Shown here: positions 32,563 to 38,284 of the stretch, in pieces
How positions within the stretch are numbered: position 1 is the stretch's first letter
Layout of the letters: each line of letters opens with the position of its first letter
Assembly (NCBI GenBank): GCA_021296255.1
Contig: JAGWAU010000005.1
Span: forward strand, 34,192-98,191
Source: Alphaproteobacteria bacterium
Lineage (GTDB): Bacteria > Pseudomonadota > Alphaproteobacteria > UBA2966
DNA length: 64,000 nucleotides
Reading direction: 5' to 3'
Translations under genes and position numbers: made by a program
The notes under the pieces: model-generated
Database searches by the model: none
Told to the model about the DNA's origin: nothing
Seen by the model: only the letters and a program-made list of their open reading frames with translations

Positions 32563-33723
32563 GTGCCGGAGCACCTAGATAGGGCAGACAGCGTCGTTGT
32601 GGGCGCCGGGGTCATCGGCCTCGCCGTGGCCCGGCGGCTCGCCATGTCCGGTCGCGAAGTCATCGTCCTCGAACAGGAAGACCTGATCGGCACGCACTCG
32701 TCATCCCGCAGCAACGAGGTCTCGCACGCCGGCCTCTACTACCGGCCCGACGGACCTCAGGCGATCCTCTGCGTGGCCGGACATCGCTTGCTCGAACCTT
32801 ACTGCGCCGAACACGGGATTCCGTACAAAGTGGTGGGAAAGCTCGTCGTGGCCAACGGCGAGGATGACCTTGAGTGGTTGAAAGGCATCTACGAGAATGC
32901 CCAGATCTGTGGCGCACGGGGTCTGGATTGGCTCGGCGGCAACGCGGCGCGCAATCTCGAACCCGAACTTCGATGTGACGCGGCAATCCATTCGACCCTG
33001 ACGGGGATCGTCGACACGCATGCTCTGATGCTCGCCTATCAAGGCGAGGCGGAAGCGCATGGTGCCTCGATCGCTTTCCAGAGCCGGCTACTCGGCGCCC
33101 GTGTGGCGAATAATGGATTCGCCCTCGAGATCGCAACAAAGGACGGCACGCATCACCTCGGTTGTAACACGCTCATCAACGCGGCGGGGCTCTGGGCCGT
33201 TCCCGTCGCGCGCGCCATCGAAGGCACGCCTCAGGACGACATCCCGCACGTCCATTACGCCAAGGGAGCCTTCTTCTCGCTTGCGGTCAAGTCGCCCTTC
33301 CGCCATCTCGTGGTGCCGGCCCAGCGTTGGATCCGCATGGGCGGGATCTACACGCTCGACATGGCCATGCGAGCCCGTTTCGGACCCGAAGAAGAGTGGA
33401 TCGAAGAGGTGAACTACGATATCGATGCCGCGCGCTCCTCGACGGCCTATGAAGCGGTGAGGCGCTACTGGCCCGGCCTCGAAGACGGTATGCTACAGCC
33501 CGCCTATACGGGCATACGCCCGCGCCTGAATGGCCCAGGAGAACCCATGGCCGACTGGATCATGCACGGTCCCGCCGAACACGGCGTGCCCGGCCTCGTA
33601 AACCTATACGGCATCGAGAGCCCGGGTATCACATCTTCGCTGCCGATCGCAGAAATGATCACAGCCATGGCGGACGGACTCCCGTTCGGACAGGCGCTGG
33701 GCGCGCAGCGCGCGACCAACTAA
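32563..33723 (+). CDS. FAD-dependent oxidoreductase of the L-2-hydroxyglutarate oxidase family
   Basis: This DAO-fold flavoprotein has 386 residues. 'SVVVGAGVIGLAVARRLA' is the FAD dinucleotide-binding loop and 'SSRSNEVSHAGLYYRP' matches the L2HGDH/LhgO signature segment. 'TGIVDTHALMLAYQGEAE', 'NAAGLWAVPVARAIEG' and the C-terminal 'ESPGITSSLPIAEMI' are further family landmarks. The start is GTG 26 bases after the GST stop. LhgO oxidises L-2-hydroxyglutarate to 2-oxoglutarate, but this context is not a lysine/glutarate operon, so it may use a different 2-hydroxy acid. Family sure, substrate uncertain. Confidence 0.87.
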   Translation: MPEHLDRADSVVVGAGVIGLAVARRLAMSGREVIVLEQEDLIGTHSSSRSNEVSHAGLYYRPDGPQAILCVAGHRLLEPYCAEHGIPYKVVGKLVVANGEDDLEWLKGIYENAQICGARGLDWLGGNAARNLEPELRCDAAIHSTLTGIVDTHALMLAYQGEAEAHGASIAFQSRLLGARVANNGFALEIATKDGTHHLGCNTLINAAGLWAVPVARAIEGTPQDDIPHVHYAKGAFFSLAVKSPFRHLVVPAQRWIRMGGIYTLDMAMRARFGPEEEWIEEVNYDIDAARSSTAYEAVRRYWPGLEDGMLQPAYTGIRPRLNGPGEPMADWIMHGPAEHGVPGLVNLYGIESPGITSSLPIAEMITAMADGLPFGQALGAQRATN

Positions 33724-33764
33724 TCATCGTTCGCAACCCGCAACCAATAATGGAGAGCAAACCC

Positions 33765-34064
33765 ATGGCCCAAGTTGCAGTTCTCGCCCAGGTCGACATC
33801 GATCCCGTCCACAAAGAGGCGTTCGACGCCCGCGCCCGTCGTCACTCGGCCGATTCCCAGGCCAACGAGGAAGGCTGCCTGATGTTTCAGGTGAATACCG
33901 TGGAAGACAACCCCAATCGTTACGTCATGTACGAGGTCTACGTCGGCAAGGATGCCATCGAGACCCACATGAACTCCGATCACATGAAGTCCTTCCGTTC
34001 GGATACGGCCGACATGGTGAAGGACCGCGTGATCACCATTCTGAACGTGGTCACGGAAATTTAG
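33765..34064 (+). CDS. antibiotic biosynthesis monooxygenase (ABM) family protein
   Basis: A 99-residue dimeric ferredoxin-like fold protein. 'VAVLAQVDIDPVHKEAFDARA' is the first strand-helix, and 'EEGCLMFQVNTVEDNPNRYVMYEVY' and 'HMNSDHMKSF' are the conserved core with the His-rich helix. Two ATGs are in frame; the one at 33765 is favoured because GGAGAG lies about eight bases upstream, within the codons that follow the earlier ATG at 33750. Members are quinone-forming mono-oxygenases or LsrG-like isomerases. Its place among flavin-dependent enzymes suggests it acts on a pathway intermediate. Confidence 0.88.
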   Translation: MAQVAVLAQVDIDPVHKEAFDARARRHSADSQANEEGCLMFQVNTVEDNPNRYVMYEVYVGKDAIETHMNSDHMKSFRSDTADMVKDRVITILNVVTEI

Positions 34065-34102: not shown

Positions 34103-34345
34103 ATAACCAAGCAGCTGCTTCATCTGGTGATCGGCGGCGAATTGACGGATCCTGGCGGAACAGAGTTCGCCGACCTGGACAAGGTCGAGATCGTGGGACT
34201 TTATCCGAACTATCAGACGGCCTATGACGCCTGGCGGGCCGTGGCGATGGCGACGATGGACGATGCAAGTATTCGGTATTTCATCGTCCACGTGCACCGT
34301 CTCCTGGATCCCGGGGCGGTCGAGGAACACGGCGACCACGACTGA
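34103..34345 (+). CDS. DUF4170-like protein with an apparent ATA start codon
   Basis: Of 80 residues, 'KQLLHLVIGGEL' and 'FADLDKVEIVGLYPNYQTAYDAW' plus 'RYFIVHVHRLLDP' match the alphaproteobacterial DUF4170 family as I recall it, whose members begin MTKQLLHLVIGG. Here the codon at that methionine is ATA (34103-34105), with AGAGGAGA correctly spaced before it. The first ordinary start in frame is GTG at 34127, eight codons in, which would delete the first beta strand and has no ribosome-binding site. It is either rare AUA initiation, a damaged gene, or a sequence error. The function of the family is unknown. The setting between ABM and the LLM mono-oxygenase is unusual. Confidence 0.7.
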   Translation: MTKQLLHLVIGGELTDPGGTEFADLDKVEIVGLYPNYQTAYDAWRAVAMATMDDASIRYFIVHVHRLLDPGAVEEHGDHD

Positions 34346-34362: not shown

Positions 34363-35610
34363 ATGCACCAAGTGCACTTTTACTGCTGGCACTTCATGGC
34401 TTATCCGTACCTGCCGGCGGACTTCGACGACAAGTACGAGTCAGGCTGGGTGACGGTTCCTAATTCGCTCTGGGACCATGAGCGGGCCGACACCCTCTAT
34501 CAGGGGTACATCGACCAGCTCGTCTACGCCGAAGAGCTGGGCTTCGACGGCCTTGTGCTCAACGAGCATCACCAGAACATCTATGGGTTGATGCCGTCCC
34601 CCAACTTGATCGCTGCGGCACTGACCCAGCGGACCGAGCGGGCGAAGCTAGTGATCCTGGGGAACATCCTGCCGCTGCATCTCAACCCCCTGCGCGTGGC
34701 GGAGGAATACGCCATGCTCGACAACATGTCGGACGGCCGCCTCATCGCCGGCTTCGCCATCGGCGGCGGACCCGAAGCGTTCAACTACGATGTGCCCCAG
34801 CCCCAGGCCCGCAGGCAATTCTGGGAGGCGGTGGATCTGGTTGCCCGTTCCTGGGTAGAGGACGGCCCCTTTCGCCATGAAGGGCGCTATTACCCATTGC
34901 GCTATGTCAACCTGTGGCCACGCCCGCGACAGAAGCCGCACCCACCCATCTGGATTCCCGGTGCGCTCAGCCTCGAGACCATGGATGAGGTGGCAAAACG
35001 TGGCTACGACTTCTTCCTGTCATCCCGGCGCCACGATACCGCGACTCAAATGGCGGTCGAACGATTCGCCGACCGCGTGGAAGCCCACGGCGGCGCCTTC
35101 CACCCCTATCGGATGGGGATCCTGCTCTCAGTCTACGTCGGCGAGAGCGACGAGCAGGCACGCGCGGAGTCCCGGGAGGGCGTCTGGTATTTCCTGCGAA
35201 ATTGCGTGAAAGGACATCTCAGGAGCCGCGGCCGTAACCTCACCTTTGGTCCCGGCGTGCCGTCCGCGTCGGTGACTTCGTGGGAGACCTACCTTGAGCG
35301 GGCCGACCCCACGACCAACAATTTCGGCGACGTGGAAACGTGGGAGGAACTCGACAGCTGGAGCTCGGTCATCGTCGGATCGCCCGAGACCGTGCGCAAT
35401 CGGCTCTGGCGGATGATCGAGTCATTCAAGCTCGGCACTATTCTGATCCAGTTCCATTTCGGAAACCTTCCCGACGATCTGACGCGCAAGAGCATGAAGT
35501 TGTTCGCGACCGAGGTCGCACCGAAGTTACGGTCGGACTCGGGGGCGTTGTTTGCCGAAGAATTCCCTGCCCTCGGCGAGATGCTGACGCGGCCCGGAGC
35601 GGCGGCGTGA
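34363..35610 (+). CDS. LLM-class (luciferase-like) flavin-dependent oxidoreductase
   Basis: This 415-residue TIM-barrel mono-oxygenase uses reduced FMN supplied by a reductase. 'YAEELGFDGLVLNEHHQNIYG' near residue 55 is the family signature, 'LVILGNILPLHLNPLRVAEE' and 'DNMSDGRLIAGFAIGGGPE' line the flavin site, and 'IWIPGALSLETMDEVAKRG' and 'VGSPETVRNRLWRM' follow. It sits in a compact plus-strand run and its stop overlaps the next gene's GTG start (GTGA), so the two proteins are probably made together. No flavin reductase gene is adjacent. Substrate unknown; bacterial relatives oxidise sulfonates, terpenoids, alkanes and aromatic amines. Confidence 0.92.
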   Translation: MHQVHFYCWHFMAYPYLPADFDDKYESGWVTVPNSLWDHERADTLYQGYIDQLVYAEELGFDGLVLNEHHQNIYGLMPSPNLIAAALTQRTERAKLVILGNILPLHLNPLRVAEEYAMLDNMSDGRLIAGFAIGGGPEAFNYDVPQPQARRQFWEAVDLVARSWVEDGPFRHEGRYYPLRYVNLWPRPRQKPHPPIWIPGALSLETMDEVAKRGYDFFLSSRRHDTATQMAVERFADRVEAHGGAFHPYRMGILLSVYVGESDEQARAESREGVWYFLRNCVKGHLRSRGRNLTFGPGVPSASVTSWETYLERADPTTNNFGDVETWEELDSWSSVIVGSPETVRNRLWRMIESFKLGTILIQFHFGNLPDDLTRKSMKLFATEVAPKLRSDSGALFAEEFPALGEMLTRPGAAA

Positions 35611-36419
35611 GCATTCGCACTGTGGACGTCCGTGGCCGTGCCGTCGAGCTTATCGAGGCAGGCACGGGGGACGCCCTCGTCTACCTGCACGATATCGCCG
35701 ACATTCATGCGGCTCGGCCCGGTTTGCTGCCCTTCCACGAGGCGCTGGCGAATGAATTCCATGTCATCGCGCCGGCCCATCCGGGGTGCGCGGGCAGCGA
35801 CGAGAACGACGACATCGAGGAGATCGAAGACGTCGTATTCCATCTCCTGGAGGTCCTTGACGCCCTCCCGTTCGAGACCTTTGCGCTTGTTGGCGCCGGC
35901 GTCGGGGGCTGGATCGCTGCCGAATTCTCGGTCCGCTATCCTGACCGCGTCTCCCGCCTCGCTCTTCTCGGAGCTACGGGCCTCCATGTGCCGGATCAGC
36001 CGATCGGCGACATCTTCATGGCGGTCCAGTCGACGGATGGCGGAATGTATCCCGATTTCCGAAGAATGCTGTTTGCCGCCGAAGATCAAGCCGAAGCCCT
36101 CGCCATGTTCCCCGACGGCCTCGGCGAGATCGGGAACGAGATGCTGCGCTACAGGATGTTCCGCTTTTTGTCGCGCGTTGGCTTCCGACCGCCGTATCTC
36201 TACAACCGGACCCTGCGGGACCGTCTCTACCGCTACGACCGGCCGGCGCTGATCATCTGGGGCAGCGAAGACCAGTTCGTACCCGGCACTCACGCGGACG
36301 CCTACGTCGAAGGCCTGGGCCATGCCCGGCTCGAAATGCTGGAGGGAGCCGGTCACAGCACGTGGATCGAACGGCCCGGCGACGTCGCCGCTCTCGTGAG
36401 TGAATTCCTCAAGTCCTGA
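35607..36419 (+). CDS. alpha/beta-hydrolase fold protein lacking the nucleophile serine
   Basis: It is 270 residues from a GTG that overlaps the mono-oxygenase stop. The fold is clear: 'FHVIAPAHPGCAGSDE', nucleophile-elbow strand 'FALVGAGVGGWIAAEFSVRY', 'RLALLGATGL', acid loop 'LIIWGSEDQFVPG' and His loop 'EGAGHSTWIERP'. The elbow reads G-A-G-V-G (residues 96-100), so glycine stands where Ser, Cys or Asp normally acts, while the Asp and His positions are kept. It is therefore unlikely to be an ordinary esterase. It may be a cofactor-free lyase or dioxygenase-like enzyme, or a non-catalytic partner of the mono-oxygenase. Translational coupling supports a joint role. Confidence 0.85.
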   Translation: MSIRTVDVRGRAVELIEAGTGDALVYLHDIADIHAARPGLLPFHEALANEFHVIAPAHPGCAGSDENDDIEEIEDVVFHLLEVLDALPFETFALVGAGVGGWIAAEFSVRYPDRVSRLALLGATGLHVPDQPIGDIFMAVQSTDGGMYPDFRRMLFAAEDQAEALAMFPDGLGEIGNEMLRYRMFRFLSRVGFRPPYLYNRTLRDRLYRYDRPALIIWGSEDQFVPGTHADAYVEGLGHARLEMLEGAGHSTWIERPGDVAALVSEFLKS

Positions 36420-36506: not shown

Positions 36507-37235
36507 TCACAAATTGCTGCCCAGACTTGCGCCGCCGCAGACGAACAAGGTCTGACCGGAGATATAGGCCGATTCTTCCGACATGAAGAACGCCACCGCG
36601 TGAGCAACTTCCTCTGGCTTTCCGATTCGGCCCATGGGCACGCGCCGCAACAGGTCGCGGCGCTGGGGGCTGTCGGGCGGGTTGTTCTCGAGCAACATGC
36701 CGGTTTCGATGGGTCCGGGCGCGACCACGTTGGCGGTGATGCCGAAGGATGCCAGGTCCAGGGTCCACTCGCGGGCGAAATTGACGAGACCAGCCTTGGT
36801 GGCCCCGTAGGTGGTGCGCCGCGGAACCAAGCCCAAAGCATGCTCGCTGGCGATGTTGACGATACGGCCGAATTCCTGGCGCTTCATCGAAGGGATGTAC
36901 GCTTGGGTCACCTGCAACGCTGTCGTCAGGTTCAGTTGCATCACGAGGTCGTACTCATCAAGGGTAATGTCGTCGACTGCCTGCGGATGTGAGCGCCCCA
37001 CGTTGTTGACGACGCCATTGACTTCGTGGACGGCGGCAATCGCGTTCATTGCGCCGGCGACGGCGTTCCGGTCACTCAGATCGACGGTGTGAAATATGCC
37101 GGGAAATCCGTTTTCCGGTTCGGTTCGAGCCAACCCGATAATCGTGTGGCCCTCCCGGGCAAGCCGCCGCGCGGTGGCGTGGCCGATTCCTTTGCTTGCG
37201 CCGGTGATGACGGTGACACGCTCCCGTCCTGACAT
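36507..37235 (-). CDS. short-chain dehydrogenase/reductase
   Basis: A 242-residue classical SDR. 'VTVITGASKGIGHATARRLA' is the cofactor loop; the following Arg in 'LARTEP' suggests NADP(H). 'GVVNNVGRSHP' is the NNxG motif, and 'NIASEHALGLVPRRTTYGATKAGL' contains catalytic Ser, Tyr and Lys. 'GPIETGM' and 'YISGQTLFVCGGASLG' close the fold. Purine-rich GGGAAGGG precedes the ATG. It resembles FabG-like or 3-oxoacyl/benzil reductases but cannot be assigned further. It is convergent with the mono-oxygenase/hydrolase run and divergent from the MBL gene. Confidence 0.92.
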   Translation of the reverse strand: MSGRERVTVITGASKGIGHATARRLAREGHTIIGLARTEPENGFPGIFHTVDLSDRNAVAGAMNAIAAVHEVNGVVNNVGRSHPQAVDDITLDEYDLVMQLNLTTALQVTQAYIPSMKRQEFGRIVNIASEHALGLVPRRTTYGATKAGLVNFAREWTLDLASFGITANVVAPGPIETGMLLENNPPDSPQRRDLLRRVPMGRIGKPEEVAHAVAFFMSEESAYISGQTLFVCGGASLGSNL

Positions 37236-37408
37236 CGCAGCCCTTCCCGTAGTGCGCCTTGCGATCCCGTGGAACCCTTACACGGTGCCAAACGCCACGT
37301 GCAAGGTACGCCCGCTTGGCAGATCCGCAACACGGCTCCTACAATCCGGTTCCGGTGATCCACCGCATGCGGGTGGATCGCGAAGCTCATCGAGGGGAGG
37401 CGCAGAGA

Positions 37409-38284
37409 ATGAAGAAGAAGTCGGTCGGCAATATCGAGATCGCGCGCGTTGTAGAGCTTGAGGGTACCGAATTCCGCTATCAGGGGCTGTTCCCCGATCT
37501 TTCCCAGGAAGACTTCGACGCCCATCGCGATTGGCTCGATCCACACTTCTTCGATTACGGCATCGGCCAGGTCAGGTTCAGCTTCCACGCCTTCGTCCTG
37601 AAGACCGAACACCACACCATCGTGGTCGATACCTGCATCGGCAACTACAAGAGCCGAGAGGCTCGACCCATCTTCAACATGCGAAAGGACGACCGCTTTC
37701 TCAGGGAACTGGCCGAGGCGGAGGTCGATCCGAATGAGGTCGACTACGTCATGTGCACGCACCTGCACGGCGATCACGTGGGCTGGAACACCAAGCTCGA
37801 GAATGGCGAATGGGTCCCGACCTTTCCCAACGCCAAGTACCTCTTCTCGGAAAAGGACCTGGAATGGTTCTCCGCCATTCCGGAAGACGACGGCAATCAC
37901 TGGCAGGGATATCGCGATTCAGTGCTGCCGGTGATCGAAGCCGGCAATGCCGTGGAGGTGACGAGCGACTATGCTCTGGATGACTCGATCTGGCTCGAGC
38001 CCTCGGAGGGGCATACCCCCGGCCACTGCTCGGTACGCCTCAAGTCGAACGATACCGAAGCGGTCTTGACGGGTGATCTGATACACCACCCCATCCAATG
38101 CGCGATGCCCCACGTCAACAGCGCTGCCTGTATCGATCCTCCCAAGTCGGCGGCGACACGGCAGGAGTTCATGGAGCGCTACGCAGACACTGATATCAAG
38201 GTGTTTCCGGCTCACTTCGCCGCCCCGACCGCAGGTTTTGTGACGGGGGCTGCGCACGGCTACCGCTGGAAGCCCGATCTGTGA
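37409..38284 (+). CDS. MBL-fold metallo-hydrolase (lactonase-like)
   Basis: This metallo-beta-lactamase fold hydrolase has 291 residues from the ATG at 37409, which has a GGGGAGG leader. Metal ligands are visible in order: 'CTHLHGDHVGWN' (HxHxDH), 'EGHTPGHCSV' (His), 'VLTGDLIHHP' (bridging Asp) and 'VFPAHFAAPTAGFV' (last His). The spacing resembles the AHL-lactonase/organophosphorus-hydrolase branch. No signal peptide is seen. It could open a lactone or ester made by the neighbouring oxidative enzymes, or act in quorum quenching; both are guesses. It diverges from the SDR. Confidence 0.9.
   Translation: MKKKSVGNIEIARVVELEGTEFRYQGLFPDLSQEDFDAHRDWLDPHFFDYGIGQVRFSFHAFVLKTEHHTIVVDTCIGNYKSREARPIFNMRKDDRFLRELAEAEVDPNEVDYVMCTHLHGDHVGWNTKLENGEWVPTFPNAKYLFSEKDLEWFSAIPEDDGNHWQGYRDSVLPVIEAGNAVEVTSDYALDDSIWLEPSEGHTPGHCSVRLKSNDTEAVLTGDLIHHPIQCAMPHVNSAACIDPPKSAATRQEFMERYADTDIKVFPAHFAAPTAGFVTGAAHGYRWKPDL

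Follow-up and report, generated by a model that had tools for sequence, protein, structure and literature searches.

A luciferase-like monooxygenase gene overlapping that of an alpha/beta-hydrolase-fold partner with glycine at the nucleophile position

A gene for a luciferase-like flavin monooxygenase (LLM) was found to overlap the gene for an alpha/beta-hydrolase-fold protein (ABH) with glycine at the nucleophile position in the window, the 64,000-nucleotide stretch of an alphaproteobacterial contig analyzed here. Glycine at this position is one of several states in a large LLM/ABH family that is rich in paralogues and has members in several phyla. Within the family, the Gly appears to go together with the gain of an acid in the oxyanion loop (HG to HD), a new observation that we take as support, not proof. 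LLMs, ABHs and nucleophile-free ABHs are already known. The explanation that we favor, with about an even chance of being right, is a co-translated unit in which a putative activity of the ABH processes an unstable LLM product noncovalently through His250 and Asp222, perhaps with Asp29. The first-pass annotation had seen the best candidate for an undescribed enzyme couple here. The conserved LLM/ABH pair stands from this claim, but the couple is neither singular nor local, and RutA/RutD provide a precedent.

The features of the region are listed in Table 1. The LLM matches Bac_luciferase (PF00296) with E=7.8e-43 and 147.4 bits, compared to a Pfam cut-off of 27.9, and reaches none of the curated NCBIfam cut-offs. 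From its family membership, it is predicted to be a flavin-dependent oxygenase. Its NEHHQ motif is invariant among the 65 close-clade LLMs in which this region is covered and matches the EHH catalytic-His motif known from bacterial luciferase. The ABH matches Abhydrolase_1 (PF00561) with E=5.7e-18 and 65.9 bits (cut-off 25.8). The overlap of the two genes, noted in the first-pass annotation as GTGA, is a true 4-base overlap, with the ABH GTG at 35607 and the LLM TGA at 35608-35610. An overlap of exactly 4 bases was present in 47 of 68 homologous close-clade pairs.

Table 1. Positions of the LLM/ABH pair, its key residues and the neighboring genes in the window.
Feature	Position	Strand	Details
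DAO-family oxidoreductase	32563-33723	+	precedes ABM
Antibiotic-biosynthesis-monooxygenase (ABM) domain protein	33750-34064	+	PF03992, E=1.2e-14; upstream, possible operon member
DUF4170 gene	34103-34345	+	PF13773, E=1.2e-22; small, between ABM and LLM
Luciferase-like flavin monooxygenase (LLM)	34363-35610	+	415 aa; first gene of pair; ATG at 34363, TGA ending at 35610; PF00296
NEHHQ motif of LLM, residues 67-71	34561-34575	+	close-clade alignment
GTGA start/stop overlap, translational coupling	35607-35610	+	sequence
Alpha/beta-hydrolase-fold protein (ABH)	35607-36419	+	270 aa; GTG start at 35607 overlaps LLM stop, TGA ending at 36419; PF00561
His28-Asp29, oxyanion loop	35688-35693	+	HD here, HG in most close relatives
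Gly98, nucleophile position in elbow	35898-35900	+	codon GGC; alignments, model turn
Asp222, triad acid	36270-36272	+	alignments; context SEDQF
His250, triad base	36354-36356	+	alignments; context GHSTW
SDR	36507-37235	-	between ABH and MBL
Metallo-beta-lactamase-fold (MBL) hydrolase	37406-38284	+	PF00753, E=6.9e-19; downstream

The elbow of the window ABH reads LVGAGVGGWIA (G-A-G-V-G-G). Gly98 aligns with the Ser or Cys of relatives, so the elbow has none of the nucleophiles Ser, Cys or Asp, while the triad acid Asp222 and the triad histidine His250 are intact. A structure prediction, which had been proposed as a check, was made with AlphaFold (AF2) from a 42-row alignment (mean pLDDT 95.1, pTM 0.94). 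In this model, Gly98 sits exactly at the turn between strand 92-97 and helix 99-110, Asp222 follows strand 214-219 and His250 follows strand 240-245, all of which are the canonical places. Both the alignments and the model thus agree with the annotation that glycine takes the nucleophile position and that the Asp and His loops are kept.

The pair is also present in a genus mate (L044), where the LLM is 89% and the ABH 81% identical to the window proteins. Since the genus mate has both the Gly and Asp29, an isolated mutation or sequencing error at Gly98 was ruled out. The dN/dS between the two genomes is 0.14 for the LLM and 0.20 for the ABH, and the latter value speaks against a decaying gene. 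The annotation had reasoned that Gly would be an isolated mutation if all close homologues had Ser. Instead, Gly is present in the nearest homologue and recurs elsewhere, and the close homologues have mostly Cys, with Ser in some, Asp in one and several independent occurrences of Gly.

Pairing was examined across bacteria with several samples. A class-wide search of 385 genomes at a threshold of E<=1e-25 found ABH matches in 29 genomes, and all 29 match loci read adjoin an LLM. A scan of GTDB contigs provided 80 further loci, which by title come from Alpha- and Betaproteobacteria, Deltaproteobacteria/Binatia, Acidimicrobiaceae, Chloroflexi and Entotheonella; the scan used a single pattern with [CG] at the nucleophile, and Ser types are therefore undersampled in it. 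With LLM-anchored sampling, which is blind to the ABH nucleophile, the ABH was present in 41 of 43 loci (Cys in 34, Ser in 3, Gly in 3 and Asp in 1). Among 247 nonredundant ABH homologues, 196 lie 400 bases or less from an LLM on the same strand. The window's own genome contains a second, distant LLM/ABH pair (L002, G000:C32:283544-284299), with an LLM of 37% identity and Ser in the ABH elbow (GISVGG). The LLM family is strongly expanded in two genomes outside SAR202, with 18 matches in the genome of L088 (G397) and 12 in that of L053 (G393) at E<=1e-40.

The residue at the elbow has been exchanged repeatedly. The 247 homologues have Ser (115), Cys (61), Gly (59), Asp (11) or Phe (1), and the 75 members of the close clade have Cys (60), Gly (9), Ser (5) or Asp (1). 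That most close relatives keep Cys would fit ordinary hydrolysis in them. A bootstrapped tree was built from the close clade and six outgroup rows, with the trait columns left out of tree building. On this tree, Gly requires 8 changes (bootstrap range 8), at least 7 of which are forced by well-supported branches, and none of the bootstrap trees has a single Gly change. Some exchanges occurred beside very similar LLMs: the LLMs are 91% identical between L064 (Gly, Asp29) and L069 (Ser), 93% between L047 (Gly) and L049 (Cys), and 87% when L062 (Ser) is compared with L080 and L096, two Gly types that have lost the His. LLMs this similar presumably make similar products. Since the elbow residue differs beside LLMs that are 87-93% identical, the ABH partner can probably do its job without a covalent nucleophile, as judged from these sequence comparisons. 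Odd elbows were also seen in other ABHs, with His (L011, GHHTG) and Arg (L012, GVRTG) in the window's own genome and Phe in L276 (GHFFG).

The free change of the elbow beside near-identical LLMs could also mean that the ABH is a noncatalytic partner. A pseudoenzyme would then bind or stabilize the LLM or carry its product, and the elbow would drift with catalysis unneeded. L080 and L096, in which the triad His is exchanged for Asn while the ABH still adjoins the LLM, are possible true pseudoenzymes, and their loss of His would fit a noncatalytic role at least there. The HD and Gly combination is shared with NDRG proteins, which are reported to be non-enzymatic (PMC7022630). Unlike NDRG, the Gly types mostly retain the triad, with Asp in 42 of 49 and His in 47 of 49. 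In the remaining seven, all of which carry an acid in the oxyanion loop, Asn replaces Asp222. The same exchange is seen in 1 of 61 Cys types and 0 of 70 Ser types; a single Ser type has Glu there. The gain of the loop acid is nonrandom and looks like re-tooling instead of drift. We therefore regard a noncatalytic partner as a serious alternative that is nevertheless unlikely.

The oxyanion loop reads YLHD in the window ABH and mostly YLHG in close relatives. An acid is present at the first residue after the loop His in 19 of 59 Gly types, 4 of 115 Ser types and 0 of 61 Cys types, and within the first three loop positions in 44 of 59, 8 of 115 and 0 of 61, respectively. A Chloroflexota set gave a loop acid in 5 of 10 Gly types and 0 of 44 Ser types. 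With tree-aware independent pairs, the median p-values (per column, uncorrected) were 0.031 for the first residue and 0.0078 for the first three, and almost no pairs went in the opposite direction. Asp29 ranked first of 1148 column tests, by a margin that was not wide. The idea that the Asp29 coupling is unique was dropped because D7-acid was close (6.1 against 0.8).

Gly and the loop acid were gained together several times (L001/L014, L064, L081, L088, L106/107/195 and L115/168). Such joint gains would be expected if the carboxylate had been relocated, with Asp29 as a covalent nucleophile or essential base and hydrolysis continuing after the group moved from the elbow to the oxyanion loop. 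Other members have Asp at the elbow itself (L056, L040, L173 and L220), which also favors this explanation. However, a charge in the oxyanion hole should disfavor oxyanion stabilization, the loop position of the acid (first, second or third) varies with the clade, and Ser types with HD exist (L213, L218 and L227). Overall, we consider a relocated carboxylate improbable.

The neighborhood of the pair was compared to that of the genus mate, where the order is ABM-LLM-ABH-MBL, largely as in the window. The ABM gene is kept upstream there (90% identical) but was not seen beside the pair beyond the genus. In the genus mate, the MBL gene lies directly 3' of the ABH and is a possible operon member; the window MBL hydrolase is below all lactonase cut-offs. 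The DAO-family oxidoreductase and the SDR have no counterpart at the corresponding place in the genus mate and look like lineage-specific gains or losses. The DUF4170 gene has a ribosome-binding-like AGGAG but ATA at its expected start and is missed by ORF lists with common starts. A protein resembling a TctC-type solute-binding protein, as judged by eye, recurs near the pair in 16 loci (L092 and 15 other close-clade loci) and might hint that the substrate is a small carboxylate taken up by the cell. Naming a pathway or substrate from the neighbors was dropped, since only the pair is conserved beyond the genus and the TctC-like recurrence is too loose.

No conserved unit other than LLM plus ABH is seen in the close-clade loci, and the distances of the two proteins are correlated (Mantel r 0.82). 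In some clades the gene order is reversed, with the ABH first and adjacency retained. Gene fusions of LLM and ABH were looked for as evidence of interaction and none were found. That the two are neighbors in one pathway that act on different intermediates, with the Gly-type ABH binding or isomerizing something unrelated, would suit the high paralogy of the LLMs (up to 18 per genome) and the ABH-first order, but it is very unlikely given this co-evolution as an exclusive unit and the functional link for which adjacency kept through reversal argues.

We favor noncovalent processing of the LLM product because of the pairing, the correlated distances, the low dN/dS of the ABH, the kept Asp and His and the elbow exchanges beside very similar LLMs, as well as the co-change of the loop acid and the RutD and HOD/AqdC precedents. 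The loss of His in L080 and L096 and the Gly types without a loop acid count in part against catalysis. In the proposed mechanism, the LLM would oxygenate a small organic substrate using reduced flavin and O2, and the ABH partner would act on the resulting unstable oxygenation product. With no covalent nucleophile in the window lineage, His250, charge-relayed by Asp222, would be the general base or acid. Gly98 would open the pocket, and Asp29 of the oxyanion loop probably takes part. Candidate chemistries for the ABH are tautomerization, elimination or water activation, which would speed the breakdown of the product. Catalysis by the ABH, the LLM product as its substrate and a role for Asp29 are all inferred.

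If this is true, one of the largest enzyme folds has given up its nucleophile many times within a fixed unit of two genes, and the recurrent second substitution may mark new chemistry. Pairs such as L064 and L069 would then be natural experiments on the purpose of the nucleophile. Bacteria thought to oxidize recalcitrant organic matter have an expanded LLM superfamily, and adjacent ABH genes may be unnamed product-processing enzymes of those expanded oxygenases. The expanded flavin monooxygenases (FMNOs) of SAR202 are highly paralogous and belong to the same superfamily as the window LLM. For these, lactone opening "spontaneously or by an esterase" was proposed (PMC5395668). Neither this paper nor the other SAR202 paper on expanded LLMs names a partner hydrolase gene, and "hydrolase" appears 0 times in either main text. 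A search of the open-access PMC literature, which depends on wording, found no report of an LLM gene neighbored by an ABH partner gene and none of Gly combined with a loop acid.

Several known systems resemble parts of the pair. The HD and Gly signature is shared with the NDRG family (PF03096), as seen in NDRG3, whose oxyanion loop has HD and whose nucleophile position has Gly. NDRG proteins are eukaryotic signaling proteins in which the triad is fully replaced, including its Asp and His, and the pocket is blocked, whereas the window ABH keeps Asp222 and His250. For this reason, and because its match to PF03096 is weak and partial (E=2.8e-6, profile 59-133 of 283), the window ABH was rejected as an NDRG member. 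With Foldseek, the closest solved folds include the meta-cleavage-product C-C hydrolases DxnB2, HsaD, BphD and MhpC, plus other ABHs; these four are among the closest by sequence as well. Unlike the window ABH, they have a Ser-His-Asp triad and no LLM pairing.

The annotation had pointed to cofactor-free dioxygenases, which keep His/Asp, as alpha/beta-fold enzymes that use no serine, and an Asp/His-based noncovalent mechanism resembling theirs is plausible. In the available part of the source on these enzymes, the His-Asp dyad acts as the base and suffices, and the nucleophile, an elbow Ser or Ala, is dispensable (PMC10548524). The analogy to HOD, QDO and AqdC ends there. They are stand-alone oxygenases, unlike the window pair, the HOD acid (D126) is placed elsewhere in the fold than the acid of the window ABH, and that part of the source does not report Gly with a loop acid for HOD-type enzymes.

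The window ABH was rejected as a RutD (TIGR03611, 50.6 bits compared to a cut-off of 238.5), and the window's own genome has no RutD matches above this cut-off. The rutABCDEFG context is absent at the window pair, where the neighbors are ABM, DUF4170, SDR and MBL. Similarity to the Rut proteins is weak (RutD 26% over 80 aa, RutA 22% over 221 aa), the rutA and rutD genes are not adjacent, unlike the window pair, and RutD is without HD in the oxyanion loop. Like the window pair, RutA and RutD are an LLM and an ABH that share an operon, with the nucleophile residue absent from the ABH elbow. The elbow of E. coli RutD is G-H-A-L-G, with Ala at the nucleophile position and with the SDD acid and GGH histidine present. 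RutD is described as accelerating a step that can also proceed spontaneously (PMC8113886).
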